A stretch of DNA of 53,121 nucleotides, taken from assembly GCA_902524235.1 (NCBI GenBank), contig CABZCF010000006.1:1-53121 (forward strand), in the 5' to 3' direction. Positions 25,102 to 37,666 of the stretch are shown one piece after another. A model generated the notes under the pieces. It searched no databases, was not told the origin of the DNA, and saw only the letters and a list, made by a program, of their open reading frames with translations. The translations under genes were made by a program, and so were the position numbers. The stretch's first letter is position 1; every line of letters begins with the position of its first letter. This stretch comes from an uncultured Pelagibacteraceae bacterium (GTDB taxonomy: Bacteria > Pseudomonadota > Alphaproteobacteria > Pelagibacterales > Pelagibacteraceae).

Positions 25102-25701
25102 ATGCAGCCAGCATACTATGAAGATTTAAAAGAAATTCAAAATAAGTACTGGTCAATGCTTGATGACGCTGTAAAGAATAGAAATTCACCCTTTAGAATT
25201 CCAGTATTTATTTGTTCCGACCAAAACGAAATTGATGGTAGAATAGTTGTGTTAAGAAAATCAGATAGAGGTAATAATCTTTTACAATTTCATACTGATT
25301 TAAGATCTTCCAAAATAAATATTTTAAATAAAAACAAAAATGCATCACTAGTTTTTTATGATAAAGAAGAAAAAATTCAATTGCGAGTAAAAGTAGAATG
25401 CATAATTAATAATAAAAATTCTATAACTGAGGAGTCTTGGAAAAAAACACAACATATAAGTAGAAGGTGTTATTTAACTGATGACCCGCCTGGAACAATT
25501 TCAAATAATCCAACCTCAGGAATGATTTCAAAATTAGAAGATTTTGATTACACGATGGAACAGAGTGAAGAAGGTTATAAAAATTTTACAGTTATTCAAT
25601 GTAAGGTTAAATCTGTTGAATGGCTTTATTTAGCAGCAAAAGGACATAGAAGAGCTAAGTTTGATTTTGAAAATAAAAAGGAAAGTTGGTTAGTTCCATA
25701 A
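25102..25701 (+). CDS. Pyridoxamine 5'-phosphate oxidase-like flavin-binding protein
   Basis: Split-barrel flavoprotein of 199 residues. The segment GRIVVLRKSDRGNNLLQFHTDLRSSKI resembles the FMN-phosphate contacts of the PNPOx family, and the C-terminal VEWLYLAAKGHRRAKF matches the end of PdxH-like proteins. It is not a canonical PdxH: the family hallmark order is loose and the start is short. Possible roles are an FMN oxidase or a general-stress flavoprotein. It sits between the dehydrogenase (6 nt) and the CA-like gene (TAATG overlap), a likely operon. Confidence 0.8.
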   Translation: MQPAYYEDLKEIQNKYWSMLDDAVKNRNSPFRIPVFICSDQNEIDGRIVVLRKSDRGNNLLQFHTDLRSSKINILNKNKNASLVFYDKEEKIQLRVKVECIINNKNSITEESWKKTQHISRRCYLTDDPPGTISNNPTSGMISKLEDFDYTMEQSEEGYKNFTVIQCKVKSVEWLYLAAKGHRRAKFDFENKKESWLVP

Positions 25702-26087
25702 TGAAAAAGTATGAAGCAATGGTTCTGTCATGTATAGACCCTAGATTTCAATCTAAAGTTTATAAATATCTTGAATCTGAAAAACTTACTGGCAAATATA
25801 GTTCTTTCGCAATCGCAGGTGCTGCAATTGGTGTAACGCATAAAAGATTTAAAAAATGGCATTCAACCTTTTGGGACAATTTAGGGATATCAATCAAATT
25901 ACATAAAATAAATAAACTTATAGTAATTAATCACAAAGACTGTGGAGCCGCTAAAATTACTTTTAAAGGGAGGAATTTTAATTCAAAAATTGAAAATGAA
26001 GTTCATCAAAAATCTTTTTTTGATATTAAAAAAGATTTGAAAAAAAGATTTCCTGATTTAGAGGTAAAATTCAAAATTTTGTCTTAA
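25701..26087 (+). CDS. Small beta-carbonic-anhydrase-like protein
   Basis: 128 residues from the ATG at 25701, which shares bases with the previous stop (TAATG); a longer frame from 25686 is possible but adds nothing recognisable. The motif pair of beta-carbonic anhydrases is present: Cys11-Ile-Asp13-Pro-Arg15 and His78-Lys-Asp-Cys81 followed by GAA. These would supply the Cys2His zinc site and the Asp-Arg dyad. True beta enzymes have about 200 residues; this one lacks N-terminal helices and the C-terminal strand extension. CO2 hydration is possible but unproven; some short relatives hydrolyse other substrates such as CS2. Confidence 0.7.
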   Translation: MKKYEAMVLSCIDPRFQSKVYKYLESEKLTGKYSSFAIAGAAIGVTHKRFKKWHSTFWDNLGISIKLHKINKLIVINHKDCGAAKITFKGRNFNSKIENEVHQKSFFDIKKDLKKRFPDLEVKFKILS

Positions 26088-26092
26088 AGCAT

Positions 26093-27325
26093 TTAATTAA
26101 AACTTATAAAATCTTTAAAATTCAAATAATTATTAACTGATTTACTATAAATAGGCATTCTAGCTTGTACTGCAGATGTAGTTTTAATTAATGTTTTGTT
26201 GTTATAATAATATTTTAAACAATTTTCATCCCATTCTAAATTACATTTCTTTATTAACTCTTTAATTTCATTTTCACTGTTATTAATTAATCTTTCATAT
26301 CTAATATCGTAAATAAAATTACCACACTCTTTCTTCCAAAATTTAATTATATTTTTGTATAAATCATAGTATTTAGAGATATGGTCAGGGATAAATGACC
26401 AATTCATATTTTTTGAATTAAAATTATTTTTATAAATTGAAAAACATGTGTCAGCTCGATCTCTTTCACAATGTATCACTATTGAATTTGGTAGAAATAA
26501 TTTAATAATGCCAATCCATTTAAAGTTTTCATTTGCTTTATCAGTCAAATTAGGCTCTGTGATATTTAAATTTGAAGCAAATTCACTATAAGCTTTTTCA
26601 ATAATATTATTTTTACTTTTAATTTTTTCTAATATTTTTAAGTAATCTAGTTCTAAATTGGTTAAAAAATTTTTTCTAATAGCTGACAATAGAATATTTA
26701 ATTCATTAGCTCCATAGACATCTTTATGCTTTGATACTATCTGTTCAACTAATGTTGTGCCTGATCTTTGCATTCCACATATAAAAATAATTTTTTTTTT
26801 ACTGATAATATTTAGAGGTTTTGTACTAAAATTAATTTTTTTGTACGTATCTAGTATTTGAAAAAAATGTTTTTTTAAATTTTCAATGTTAGAACCATTG
26901 ATTTTATATTTAATATTATTAGCGTTTTTGTAATGATTAAACGATTTTTTATACTCTCCTTTGTCCTCATAAGCTTTTCCTAATGCGAAATCTAAATCAA
27001 TTAATTTAATTTGATTAATTTTTTTTGATTTAAATAATTTTAACATTCTATCTAGATGATCATTCTCATTATTATAATTTATTAAAGTACTTAACATTCT
27101 GTGTGCTTTTGTATTTTCAGGCTCAATGTTAATCACTTTATAAAAATAATCTGTAGCACTTACATGATTGCCAATTGATCGCTCTAGCGTTGCAATGTCA
27201 TATAAAATTTTTGTATTATTTGGAGATAACTTAATTGCCTTTTTATAAAAGACGAGTGCATTTTCAAAATCATTTATATCTTTGCATTTATTAGCTTCAA
27301 CTATTATTGATTTAATTTCATCCAT
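26093..27325 (-). CDS. TPR-sulfotransferase fusion protein
   Basis: 410 residues. The first 145 or so form about three to four tetratricopeptide units (for example ALVFYKKAIKLSPNNTKILYDIATLERSIG). From about residue 175 a sulfotransferase domain begins; the PAPS 5'-phosphosulfate loop is GMQRSGTT at 184-191, and the 3'-phosphate region is probably VIHCERDRADTCFSIYK. It likely transfers sulfate from PAPS to a glycan or protein recognised by the TPR part. No signal peptide is seen, so it acts in the cytosol. It ends 5 nt from the convergent CA-like gene. Confidence 0.85.
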   Translation of the reverse strand: MDEIKSIIVEANKCKDINDFENALVFYKKAIKLSPNNTKILYDIATLERSIGNHVSATDYFYKVINIEPENTKAHRMLSTLINYNNENDHLDRMLKLFKSKKINQIKLIDLDFALGKAYEDKGEYKKSFNHYKNANNIKYKINGSNIENLKKHFFQILDTYKKINFSTKPLNIISKKKIIFICGMQRSGTTLVEQIVSKHKDVYGANELNILLSAIRKNFLTNLELDYLKILEKIKSKNNIIEKAYSEFASNLNITEPNLTDKANENFKWIGIIKLFLPNSIVIHCERDRADTCFSIYKNNFNSKNMNWSFIPDHISKYYDLYKNIIKFWKKECGNFIYDIRYERLINNSENEIKELIKKCNLEWDENCLKYYYNNKTLIKTTSAVQARMPIYSKSVNNYLNFKDFISFN

Positions 27326-27398: not shown

Positions 27399-27839
27399 TT
27401 ATTTTTCTAGTTTAGAAAGTTTTTTTCTAAGTCCTGATGAAAGACTATTAAACCATTGTTTTTCTTTACCAGAATCTGGGAGAACTGCACCATATTCGAT
27501 CATTTGAGACGGAGGTATGTCTATAATATACACCCAAATTTGTGTATCATTTAATTTAGTACTTTTTACTATAATTTTTTTTAATTCCAAGATAAGTTTA
27601 TCTTTAATTTTTTTTGTTCTCCCCGCTCTTATTTGTCCAAGTAAAAATAAAGTCCTTTCGTTAACTTTTTTTCCACCCATAAAAAGATTATTTTTTTTTG
27701 TTTTATTAAAAATAACTTGAGCAAAGTAAGTATTTGCACCTGTTACTACATTATGAACTTTGGTAATGCCTTCTGCTAACTTTTTTTGTTGTTTTGATGT
27801 TAAGTTAAAATTTGAATTTCTGACTGTGTAAGTTGGCAT
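27399..27839 (-). CDS. cis-3-chloroacrylate dehalogenase-like tautomerase (cis-CaaD/Cg10062 type)
   Basis: Tautomerase-superfamily protein whose catalytic base is the N-terminal Pro. The frame could begin at 27875, but ATG at 27839 places Pro right after Met (MPTYTV), which the chemistry needs. Numbering from that Pro, all six residues known to be essential in cis-CaaD fall at identical positions: Pro1, His28, Arg70, Arg73, Tyr103 and Glu114. Segments such as NLFMGGK, IWVYIIDIPPSQMIEYG and WFNSLSS line up with cis-CaaD as recalled. 146 residues after Met removal. The natural substrate is unknown; a hydratase for an acetylenic or halogenated C3 acid is plausible. It follows the gamma-CA gene by 5 nt. 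Confidence 0.82.
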   Translation of the reverse strand: MPTYTVRNSNFNLTSKQQKKLAEGITKVHNVVTGANTYFAQVIFNKTKKNNLFMGGKKVNERTLFLLGQIRAGRTKKIKDKLILELKKIIVKSTKLNDTQIWVYIIDIPPSQMIEYGAVLPDSGKEKQWFNSLSSGLRKKLSKLEK

Positions 27840-27844
27840 TATTT

Positions 27845-28357
27845 TTAAAATATATTTTTTAAATATTTTTTCCAATTATTTTGGTATCTAATTGCATTTT
27901 GCTTCATTGCTTCAACTTCTTCCTCTGTGACCTGTCTTACGATTTTTCCAGGAGATCCCACAACTAATGAATTATCTGGTATTACTTTATTTTCAGTGAT
28001 TAATGCTCTAGCGCCTATTAAACAATTCTTTCCAATTTTTGATCCATTGAGTAGAACTGCACCAATTCCAATTAAACTGTTATCATCAATTGAACAACCA
28101 TGAAGCATTACTAAATGACCCACGGTAACATTTTTTCCAACCTTTAAAGGATAGCCCGGATCAGTATGAAGTACGCAACTGTCTTGGACATTTGACCCCT
28201 CTCCTATGTGGATATTTTCTATATCTCCCCTTAAAGTGGCATTAAACCAAACACTGGTATTTTTTTCTAATGTAACATCACCGATTACAACAGCATTAGG
28301 TGCGACCCAATTTTCACCAGAGTTTTTTGGTTTTTTATTTTCCAAATCATAAAACAT
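27845..28357 (-). CDS. Gamma-carbonic-anhydrase-family protein (YrdA/PaaY type)
   Basis: Left-handed beta-helix of hexapeptide repeats, 170 residues. Zinc ligands fit the family: His64 (VLHTDPG), His81 and His86 (VGHLVMLHGC). Front segment GVNW-like is GENWVAPNAVVIGD, and RGDIENI carries the conserved Arg and Asp. Bacterial members range from active carbonic anhydrases to acyl-CoA-type thioesterases, so the reaction is not certain. It is co-oriented with the tautomerase gene 5 nt downstream and divergent from the thioredoxin-like gene 20 nt away. Confidence 0.88.
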   Translation of the reverse strand: MFYDLENKKPKNSGENWVAPNAVVIGDVTLEKNTSVWFNATLRGDIENIHIGEGSNVQDSCVLHTDPGYPLKVGKNVTVGHLVMLHGCSIDDNSLIGIGAVLLNGSKIGKNCLIGARALITENKVIPDNSLVVGSPGKIVRQVTEEEVEAMKQNAIRYQNNWKKYLKNIF

Positions 28358-35180: not shown

Positions 35181-35810
35181 TTACTCTTTTTTATAGTTTT
35201 TAATCTGTCCTAAAATTGTAATCATTTCGTTATCAGATAGAATTTTAGGTTTTCCTATTTTTAATGCATTTATATATTGTTGACAAATATTTTCTATTTC
35301 CTGAGCAAGTTCAAAGGCTTTATTTAAATTTTTTTCAAAAGCAACCTGACCGTGATTAGACATCAAGCACGCTTTTCTATCTTTAAGCGCTTTAATTATA
35401 TTTTGTGAGAGTTCTTCAGTGCCAAAAGTTGCATAATCAGCACATTTGATATCATTACCACCTGCAAGAGCTACCATATAATGAAATGCAGGTATTGATT
35501 TCCCATGAGTAGAAACTGCTGTAGCATGGGTTGAATGTGCATGAACAATTGCATTCGCTTCTGCCTTATTTAAATATATGTCTTTATGAAATTTCCATTC
35601 TGAAGAAGGTTTCATTTTTTTTTCTTTAAATTTGCCGTCTAAAGATACAAAAACTATGTCTTCATACTTTAAAGATGAATATTTTACTCCGGAAGGGGTT
35701 ATTAAAAAGCCATCATCATGTCTTATGGATATATTTCCCGATCTTAAAGCTGAAAGATTTTCAGTATTAAGCATGTTAGCATATTTAATTACTTCTTCAG
35801 CTGGACTCAT
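35181..35810 (-). CDS. Class II aldolase (L-fuculose-1-phosphate aldolase type), likely cleaving methylthioribulose-1-phosphate
   Basis: 209 residues, zinc-dependent class II aldolase/adducin fold. Glu71 (SSEWKFH), His90, His92 (VHAHSTH) and His153 (SNHGQ) are at the positions of E. coli FucA Glu73, His92, His94, His155 shifted by two. Segments AFHYMVALAGG and ATFGTEEL also match FucA and not the MtnB dehydratase branch. Placed between mtnA and speDE, it fits the Ald2 role of the DHAP shunt: 5-methylthioribulose-1-phosphate to dihydroxyacetone phosphate and 2-methylthioacetaldehyde. Fuculose phosphate cleavage is the alternative, but no fucose genes are near. Confidence 0.88.
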   Translation of the reverse strand: MSPAEEVIKYANMLNTENLSALRSGNISIRHDDGFLITPSGVKYSSLKYEDIVFVSLDGKFKEKKMKPSSEWKFHKDIYLNKAEANAIVHAHSTHATAVSTHGKSIPAFHYMVALAGGNDIKCADYATFGTEELSQNIIKALKDRKACLMSNHGQVAFEKNLNKAFELAQEIENICQQYINALKIGKPKILSDNEMITILGQIKNYKKE

Positions 35811-36132: not shown

Positions 36133-37199
36133 TTAAATAATTTATTTAACCCCTCTTCCGATGCGCTGCAAATTCCTTTTTCTGTTATTAATCCTGTAAT
36201 AAATTTTGCAGGCGTTACATCAAACGCTAAATTTAAGGATTTACTATTTTCAGGGTATATTTGTATTTTTTTAATATTCCCTTTCTCATCTAAACCTTCA
36301 ATAGTCGATAGTTCATTTGAATCTCTTTCTTCAATTGGAATATTTTTAGAATCTTTTAAATCCCAATCAATCGTAGAGCTTGGCAAAGCCACATAAAATG
36401 GAACATTATTATCTTTAGCAGCAATGGCTTTTAAATAAGTTCCTACTTTGTTGCAAACATCTCCATTAGATAATGTGCGATCAGTCCCAACAATGCACAT
36501 ATCTACCTCGCCTCTTTGCATTAAAATACCACCTGTATTATCTGCTATAATAGTGTTTTTAATATTTTCCTCATTTAATTCAAAAGAAGTTAAATTTGCT
36601 CCTTGATTTCTTGGTCTTGTTTCATCTACCCAAACGTGAATTGGAATATTCTTTTGATGAGCATGATAAATAGGTGATGTTGCTGTACCCCAGTTTATTG
36701 TTGCAAGCCAACCGGCATTACAATGGGTTAAAATATTTACAGTGTCTTTTTTTTTTTTATAAATGTCCTCTATAATTTTAAGTCCATTTATACCAATATT
36801 TTTACAAAAATTTATATCCTCTTCACAAATCTCATTAGCTTTATTAACAGCTATATTTAATATTTCATTACTATTAACACCTTTTAATTTCTTATACATT
36901 CTATCCACTGCCCACTTTAAATTAATAGCAGTCGGTCTAGATTTAATTAAATTTTTACAAGCATTATCCAAAAAAGATTGTTCATTATTTTCTATTAAAG
37001 CTAATACTATGCCATATGCTGCGGTAGCTCCAATTAGAGGTGCCCCTCTGACCTCCATGACTTTTATTGCGTTAATAGCATCATCTACTGACTTTAGCTC
37101 TTTAATCTGAAATTTATGTGGTAATTTTGTTTGATCAATAATTTTAACAGTATTATTCTCAAACCAAATTGTTTTATATTCCTGGCCTTTAATTCTCAT
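36129..37199 (-). CDS. mtnA: Methylthioribose-1-phosphate isomerase
   Basis: Converts 5-methylthioribose-1-phosphate to 5-methylthioribulose-1-phosphate. eIF2B-like fold of 356 residues. Landmarks: MEVRGAPLIGATAAYG, the catalytic-Cys segment LTHCNAGWLAT, and the catalytic-Asp segment IVGTDRTLSNGDVCNKVGTY. Overlaps the GFA gene upstream and the small membrane gene downstream by 4 nt each. With mtnP upstream and the FucA-type aldolase downstream it supplies the aldolase substrate. Confidence 0.95.
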   Translation of the reverse strand: MRIKGQEYKTIWFENNTVKIIDQTKLPHKFQIKELKSVDDAINAIKVMEVRGAPLIGATAAYGIVLALIENNEQSFLDNACKNLIKSRPTAINLKWAVDRMYKKLKGVNSNEILNIAVNKANEICEEDINFCKNIGINGLKIIEDIYKKKKDTVNILTHCNAGWLATINWGTATSPIYHAHQKNIPIHVWVDETRPRNQGANLTSFELNEENIKNTIIADNTGGILMQRGEVDMCIVGTDRTLSNGDVCNKVGTYLKAIAAKDNNVPFYVALPSSTIDWDLKDSKNIPIEERDSNELSTIEGLDEKGNIKKIQIYPENSKSLNLAFDVTPAKFITGLITEKGICSASEEGLNKLFK

Positions 37200-37666
37200 T
37201 TAATTCTTTCCAAACTGTCCTTGGGCCAAGTTTTTTCTCTATCATACATTTCATTATAGCAAATTTTCTTGTCATTAATTTCAATCCAAGGATCTTTACT
37301 TTTAATAAATATATGTGCTTGTGGTTCGATTGGCCTCTCTAATGTCTGAGTTCTTACTGCTATTCTTCCTTTAGAAATATTATATCTACAAAAAACATAT
37401 ACACCACATATAATACAAAAATAAGCATTGTAACCTTTTCCACTACCGGTAGGTAAATCAATTGAGGCTACATCTCCACTTATTTTAAAATCTTCTTCCA
37501 TAACCATTGTATGAATTACAAATGAAGAACCTGTAGATAATTTGCAATTTTTACAATGGCATGCTTGTGTAAATAAAGGATTTCCTTCAATTTTATATTT
37601 AACGTTACCACAAGTACAATTCCCTTTAATTTCGTTTTTCTTGCTCATCTTTATATTTTTACTCAA
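37196..37666 (-). CDS. GFA-family (glutathione-dependent formaldehyde-activating enzyme-like) protein
   Basis: 156 residues, zinc-binding fold. Cys pairs are in GNCTCGNVKY, the C-H-C-K-N-C cluster CHCKNC, and the later CIICGVYVF. These fit the CENP-V/GFA family, some members of which bind glutathione adducts. Being inside the mtnP-mtnA unit, it could handle an aldehyde such as methylthioacetaldehyde; this is inference only. The start may be the ATG 18 nt further in, because two Met occur early. Confidence 0.85.
   Translation of the reverse strand: MSKNIKMSKKNEIKGNCTCGNVKYKIEGNPLFTQACHCKNCKLSTGSSFVIHTMVMEEDFKISGDVASIDLPTGSGKGYNAYFCIICGVYVFCRYNISKGRIAVRTQTLERPIEPQAHIFIKSKDPWIEINDKKICYNEMYDREKTWPKDSLERIK

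Follow-up and report, generated by a model that had tools for sequence, protein, structure and literature searches.

A SAR11 branch of the cis-CaaD tautomerase subgroup with a conserved catalytic set and changing genomic sites

We analyzed a 53,121-nucleotide stretch of DNA from an uncultured Pelagibacteraceae bacterium (contig CABZCF010000006.1; the whole stretch is hereafter the window), which carries a gene for a small tautomerase. Sequence comparison places this protein and its SAR11 homologs on a new branch of the known subgroup of cis-3-chloroacrylate dehalogenase (cis-CaaD). The branch retains the full set of six catalytic residues, and its gene has a notable habit of changing genomic place. 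The founder of the subgroup, cis-CaaD, is known from the degradation of a synthetic nematicide. SAR11, a highly abundant group of marine bacteria, gives the subgroup a native setting: about a fifth of the sampled SAR11-order genomes (59/297) hold the full catalytic set. In our estimate, the chances are about even that the gene encodes a self-contained, accessory hydratase of the cis-CaaD subgroup that would convert a small acetylenic or cis-3-substituted acrylic acid to malonate semialdehyde and probably on to acetaldehyde.

The protein opens with Met-Pro, in agreement with a sequence-only reading of the window; the mechanically called open reading frame (ORF) starts further upstream, at a TTG that lies within the preceding gene. 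In support of the ATG start, Met followed by Pro occurs in all SAR11 copies, with Pro1 in 133 of 133 aligned SAR11 rows. These rows consist of 80 named loci and 53 further rows, amount to 103 distinct proteins, and include the window's own locus twice; 22 of the 53 further rows repeat one of the named loci. The suggested SAR11 origin was borne out by the 80 named Pelagibacteraceae/Pelagibacterales loci, whose copies are 75–84% identical (best segment), mostly in the same gene order. Pfam Tautomerase_3 (PF14832) matched the window protein at 41.6 bits (cut-off 25.7), the one such match in its own genome (85% complete). Together with the six residues, this match agrees with the membership of the cis-CaaD subgroup that had been proposed. 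Pro1, His28, Arg70, Arg73, Tyr103, and Glu114 stand at the numbers first given for them and match the list for cis-CaaD (PMC5818174). No gap falls between them: BLASTP paired the window protein with cis-CaaD at 49 of 138 identical positions and 0 gaps, and alignments with Cg10062 were gapless over 144 residues. These two enzymes are also the best solved relatives (Cg10062, E 1.5e-30; cis-CaaD 2flt, E 4.1e-23), with scores that chance does not explain. The predicted monomer has a fused beta-alpha-beta fold like that of cis-CaaD, and the matches listed in a fold search comprised designed proteins and members of the tautomerase superfamily, MIF among them.

From the sequences, the catalytic set appears to be conserved under purifying selection in SAR11. 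All six residues are kept in each of the 133 SAR11 rows. Among database proteins, the full set is present in 120 of 120 that are SAR11-like and in 117 of 120 on the cis-CaaD side; the three exceptions have letters missing at one end, and one of these also has Ser1. Among 22 other relatives, the five residues after Pro1 are present in 22/22, and position 1 is Pro in 15 and Ala in 7. A first, alignment-free count gave all six residues in 140 of 145 loci, with Ala1 in two and three distant loci not lining up. The median ratio of nonsynonymous to synonymous substitution rates (dN/dS) was 0.075 for 126 of the 150 pairs sampled, the other 24 having been dropped for dS >= 1.5 or a failed estimate, and the value for the window protein against the 80 others was 0.123; dS is about 1, near saturation, and the ratio is therefore rough. 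The window protein has Leu51 (codon 27684-27686) where the other 131 of the 133 SAR11 rows have His51. Both Leu51 rows are the window's own locus, and Leu51 recurs in 4 of the 120 SAR11-like database proteins. A clade of seven relatives with Ala1 (L116, L117, and L198–L202) comes from ~2 Mb genomes in the family of genome G545 (genus g156); its members keep the other five residues and lie ~13–26 nt 3' of a low-molecular-weight-phosphatase/arsenate-reductase-like gene (PF01451 for L116).

The sequence-only reading had described these six positions as those that define cis-CaaD. They are a mark of the subgroup and not of a dehalogenase, because Cg10062 and 117 of the 120 cis-CaaD-side relatives have them too, and the window protein is without Thr34. 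The observation behind that reading is real and its family assignment correct, while the function was over-specific. The window protein is 34–36% identical to cis-CaaD (33.8% over residues 1–130) and shares with it the six residues and the Thr32-Gly33 start of a loop; it differs in having Ala34, Phe38, and Ala117 in place of Thr34, Leu38, and Arg117. Cg10062 of Corynebacterium glutamicum (PDB 3n4g), also called CgX, is an inefficient cis-CaaD whose function is described as unknown (PMC5818174). Over residues 1–130, it is 35.4% identical to the window protein and 33.8% identical to cis-CaaD, and it has Ala54-Ala55 where the window protein has Gly54-Gly55. Loop 32–39 reads TGANTYFA in the window protein, TGTQHFLA in cis-CaaD, and AHAPKYLV in Cg10062. 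Residue 34 is Ala in the window protein, in Cg10062, and in every examined relative with a residue there; by alignment, Thr34 is thus peculiar to cis-CaaD within the set of sequences compared. More distant relatives are N1 (PDB 7m58, 32% identity to the window protein) and Linker 1 (PDB 5uif, 28%), the latter without Tyr103 (PMC5818174). The 120 database entries P0122–P0241, named tautomerase family proteins (Caballeronia, Paraburkholderia, Cupriavidus, and others), resemble the window protein in their TGA loop and Phe38 and are 38–42% identical to it in the rows compared; unlike it, they have other gene neighbors and lie nearer cis-CaaD on the tree, as judged from plasmid representatives. In this 71-row tree, cis-CaaD grouped with plasmid rows L113 and L115 (92/88, not starred), and Cg10062 fell on another branch with L114, L209, and L213 (99/88), among Methylobacterium and other proteobacterial relatives. 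The SAR11 rows, together with the Ala1 clade, lie across a 97/94 branch from cis-CaaD. A single SAR11 clade was not rejected by the approximately unbiased (AU) test (p-AU 0.253).

Enzymes of the subgroup hydrate a bound C3 acid at its C3 and so form malonate semialdehyde, with water activation assigned to His28, Tyr103, and Glu114, and Cg10062 performs hydration plus decarboxylation of propiolate. Titles of PDB entries record hydration intermediates for Cg10062 mutants, and hydration and decarboxylation intermediates for a cis-CaaD mutant with acetylenecarboxylic acid. In cis-CaaD, the substrate is anchored by Arg70 and Arg73, with Pro1 serving as the acid (PMC11641302). By analogy with these two enzymes, the SAR11 protein would form a trimer and hydrate a small acetylenic or cis-3-substituted acrylic acid at C3. 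Arg70 and Arg73 would bind the carboxylate, His28, Tyr103', and Glu114 would activate water, and Pro1 would give a proton at C2. We infer malonate semialdehyde as the product, which would then probably lose CO2; acetaldehyde is a plausible product of that step. An ExaC-type acetaldehyde dehydrogenase, whose gene is on another contig in this genome and lies downstream of the tautomerase gene in a SAR11 subgroup, could carry acetaldehyde on to acetate. The tautomerase gene sits in differing short gaps and at operon ends and therefore appears to need no fixed operon partner.

Co-occurrence with the ExaC-like aldehyde dehydrogenase (ALDH) and DUF779 genes is a weak lead only. In 8 of the 80 named loci, both genes lie downstream of the tautomerase (ALDH within two ORFs), as against 0 of 20 tautomerase-free slots, where the slot is the interval closed by the pyridoxamine-oxidase-like (PNPox-like) gene of Table 1. 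The downstream ALDH scored 854 bits against NF050026 (acetaldehyde dehydrogenase ExaC; cut-off 900). On a Cupriavidus oxalaticus plasmid, a homolog of the cis-CaaD branch is divergent from adh-DUF779. Of 40 genomes with the tautomerase, 35 have DUF779, as do 15 of 40 genomes without the tautomerase (Fisher p 6e-6 overall; 24/28 vs 14/33 in genus g1, p 6e-4), the 40 positives having been picked from the 59 with a match, mostly the more complete ones. We also observed a Lys/Arg-rich stretch of about 50–65 residues before or in frame with the SAR11 ALDH ORF (L100, L110, L277, L279, and L280), which an upstream in-frame start could explain. Extended to its full length, the proposal is that the cis-CaaD subgroup has a third, natural branch in ocean SAR11 bacteria, in the form of a one-gene, site-hopping module that takes a natural acetylenic or cis-3-heteroatom-substituted C3 acid from plankton through acetaldehyde to acetate. 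We hold this extension to be doubtful; if true, the module is the native counterpart of an enzyme known from the breakdown of a man-made nematicide.

Several observations weigh against the hydratase proposal, in which both the activity and the substrate are predictions from sequence. Thr34, in the alpha1/beta2 loop, was marked as key for cis-CaaD by simulations (PMC11641302), and the window protein has Ala there. Position 38 is Phe, where both characterized enzymes have Leu, and residue 117, Arg in cis-CaaD and Cg10062, is Ala, Glu, Thr, Val, or Ser across the 133 SAR11 rows. The end branch of cis-CaaD is long (1.25) and its placement unsure. The active site spans subunits in this family, and the predicted structure is a monomer only. 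The lead on the later steps has its own difficulties: on an mtnA tree covering 60 of the 80 genomes, with 5 well-supported independent pairs, the DUF779 association was not significant, and it may be a clade effect. Only 4 of the 40 positive genomes have DUF779 and the tautomerase within 3 kb of each other. The ALDH-DUF779 pair also has other genomic homes, including one in the window's own genome, on a different contig (95.7% identical to the pair of locus L042 for ALDH and 96.7% for DUF779) and one in genome G011, in which the tautomerase was not matched. Given these other homes and the few close neighbors, the place of the pair beside the tautomerase may therefore reflect shared cargo and not a shared pathway.

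The best-surviving alternative, which we judge unlikely, is that the protein chiefly catalyzes the keto-enol tautomerization of a small 2-oxo acid (phenylpyruvate type), with the hydratase residues kept by descent. Both cis-CaaD and Cg10062 retain phenylenolpyruvate tautomerase activity (PMC5818174), although 2-hydroxymuconate is processed by neither, and along the linker series phenylenolpyruvate activity drops stepwise towards cis-CaaD as the residues of that enzyme appear (PMC5818174), all six of which are invariant in SAR11. The name phenylpyruvate tautomerase PptA attaches to many relatives in their source databases, and a 2-keto-4-pentenoate-hydratase-like gene (66.7 bits, far under the cut-off) occupies the same slot in six fetched SAR11 loci (L003, L075, L092, L097, L110, and L111). 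Less probable again is a true cis-3-haloacrylate dehalogenase acting on halogenated acrylates that occur naturally in the sea, for example in the red alga Asparagopsis. The six residues and the Thr32-Gly33 loop start are common to the SAR11 protein and cis-CaaD, and Asparagopsis taxiformis is a reported source of haloacrylic acids (PMC10919026, PMC8948725). Against this, the excerpts of these two papers do not state which haloacrylate isomers the alga makes, and nothing ties algal haloacrylates to the gene. The absence of Thr34, the separation of the SAR11 branch from cis-CaaD, and the lack of any dehalogenation gene among the named neighbors likewise speak against a dehalogenase.

The sequence-only reading had also taken the gamma-carbonic-anhydrase (gamma-CA) gene 5 nt upstream as a clue to the substrate. 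The spacing is as described, with the stop of that gene at 27845, and an acetylenic or 3-substituted C3 acid remains a reasonable substrate class; the gene itself did not hold up as a clue. The gamma-CA label is weak (NF050158, 179 bits, cut-off 250), and a strong match to the gamma-CA-like gene was found in 56 of 58 SAR11-order genomes, the remaining two having a weak match only. Because this gene is near-universal while the tautomerase is patchy and found at unrelated sites, it is no guide to the substrate, and an operon link between the two was rejected on the same counts (56/58 genomes vs 59/297). In the 80 named loci, the gamma-CA-like gene is directly upstream in 52, in the same locus with intervening genes in 19, cut off by a contig edge in 3, and elsewhere in 6. 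One of the 19, L071, rests on a weak 36% match to a cysE-like gene, and 7 loci are therefore truly elsewhere: 5 after fabA-fabB-fabI-like genes (in L039, Pfam ketoacyl synthase and enoyl-ACP reductase), 1 between two branched-chain transporter permeases (Pfam), and 1 in a small-ORF cluster. In 10 loci of SAR11 genus g5, the tautomerase stands between mtnP and mtnA (NCBIfam names). Further sites are beside a sodium:solute-symporter gene (Pfam), after a DUF1330-like gene, and beside what we read as a putative amino-acid-transporter-like gene. These form 8 context classes, which require at least 8 changes by parsimony on a 47-row SAR11 tree (least possible 7); the gamma-CA class holds 27 of the 47 rows, 4 of them by default since no gamma-CA ORF lay in the fetched stretch, and support is weak for many inner branches. 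The empty site, with the gamma-CA-like gene followed directly by the PNPox-like gene, occurs in 7 of the 20 tautomerase-free loci. Cargo in the slot varies and includes sulfotransferase (in the window), FecR, dienelactone-hydrolase-like, DUF1330, and ALDH genes. DUF1330 was considered as a partner and rejected, being present in 7 of the 20 tautomerase-free slots as well.

These data bear on the idea that the enzyme serves the pathway of its host operon, either 5'-methylthioadenosine salvage when flanked by mtnP and mtnA or CO2 handling when next to the gamma-CA-like gene. The 52 direct adjacencies and the 10 g5 loci favor it, but the 8 context classes and the contrast between a near-universal neighbor and a patchy tautomerase do not, and we regard it as very improbable. 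The mtnP-tautomerase-mtnA order in g5 is striking, yet mtnA is as common with the tautomerase (33 of 40 genomes) as without it (32 of 40), and the salvage link was set aside. A single short gene at many operon ends in compact genomes is therefore a warning against reading function from any one neighbor.

Candidatus Pelagibacter ubique is reported as a methanethiol producer, and the slimmest prospect of all is that the tautomerase supplies the DmdD step lacking in its breakdown of dimethylsulfoniopropionate, splitting 3-methylthioacrylate to methanethiol and malonate semialdehyde by what we infer to be the same bond chemistry. DmdD orthologs are absent from Ca. Pelagibacter ubique, the methanethiol-step gene was unidentified as of 2016, and DmdD itself forms acetaldehyde and methanethiol (PMC5069961). 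Against this prospect, the known substrate is a CoA thioester, whereas the cis-CaaD pocket binds a free carboxylate, and SAR11 genome G011 has no tautomerase, which therefore cannot be the general SAR11 methanethiol enzyme.

Across the order, the 59 matches among 297 sampled genomes fall in 3 of 11 genera (own genome counted; one match covers 46 residues). Matches were found in 11 of 398 sampled phylum-level genomes (own one counted; 2 weak) and, within the family of G545, in 18 of 200 (3 weak); the listed single-contig SAR11 genomes, G011 among them, gave none. Phage spread was rejected as an explanation, as a viral-contig scan with six peptide patterns returned 39 stretches and no relative, and a phage collection gave no match. 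A literature search on the SAR11 tautomerase, Cg10062, and cis-CaaD, by title and abstract start and with subscription papers mostly uncovered, returned no paper on the SAR11 gene. A scan for promoters and terminators gave no terminator and 2 promoter-like sites, a number below that in shuffled sequence; flanking repeats were imperfect A+T-rich matches only.

Table 1. Positions in the window of the tautomerase, its key codons, and its neighbors.
Feature	Position	Strand	Basis
cis-CaaD-subgroup tautomerase, 146 aa from ATG, N-terminal Pro1	27399..27839	-	ORF, profile, alignment, fold search
Pro1 codon	27834..27836	-	Pro1 catalytic in cis-CaaD (PMC5818174, PMC11641302)
His28 codon	27753..27755	-	sequence and alignment
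Ala34 codon (Thr34 in cis-CaaD)	27735..27737	-	alignment
Arg70 codon	27627..27629	-	sequence and alignment
Arg73 codon	27618..27620	-	sequence and alignment
Tyr103 codon (cross-subunit role in cis-CaaD, PMC5818174)	27528..27530	-	sequence and alignment
Glu114 codon	27495..27497	-	sequence and alignment
gamma-CA/PaaY-like hexapeptide gene, upstream neighbor rather than partner	27845..28357	-	profiles, SAR11-wide search
Tetratricopeptide repeat (TPR) and sulfotransferase gene, downstream, variable slot cargo	26093..27325	-	profiles, locus comparison
PNPox-like gene closing the slot	25102..25701	+	profiles, locus comparison

The residues of malonate semialdehyde decarboxylase (MSAD) are Asp37, Arg73, and Arg75 plus Pro1 (PMC11641302); residue 37 of the window protein, counted in its own numbering, is Tyr. 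Near the gamma-CA-like gene, the window encodes a short beta-carbonic-anhydrase-like protein (Pro_CA_2, 41.5 bits; 25686-26087), and related genes are similarly placed in 4 of the 20 tautomerase-free loci (L183, L190, L191, and L192). In the mtn operon of the window, a GFA-family gene (PF04828, 90.5 bits; 37196-37666) fills the mtnP-mtnA gap, the tautomerase's place in g5. The class II aldolase-like gene of the same operon (35181-35810) scored 222 bits as fuculose-phosphate aldolase (cut-off 264) and 66 bits as mtnB dehydratase, and this better score as an aldolase hints that SAR11 may handle methylthioadenosine by way of an aldolase.
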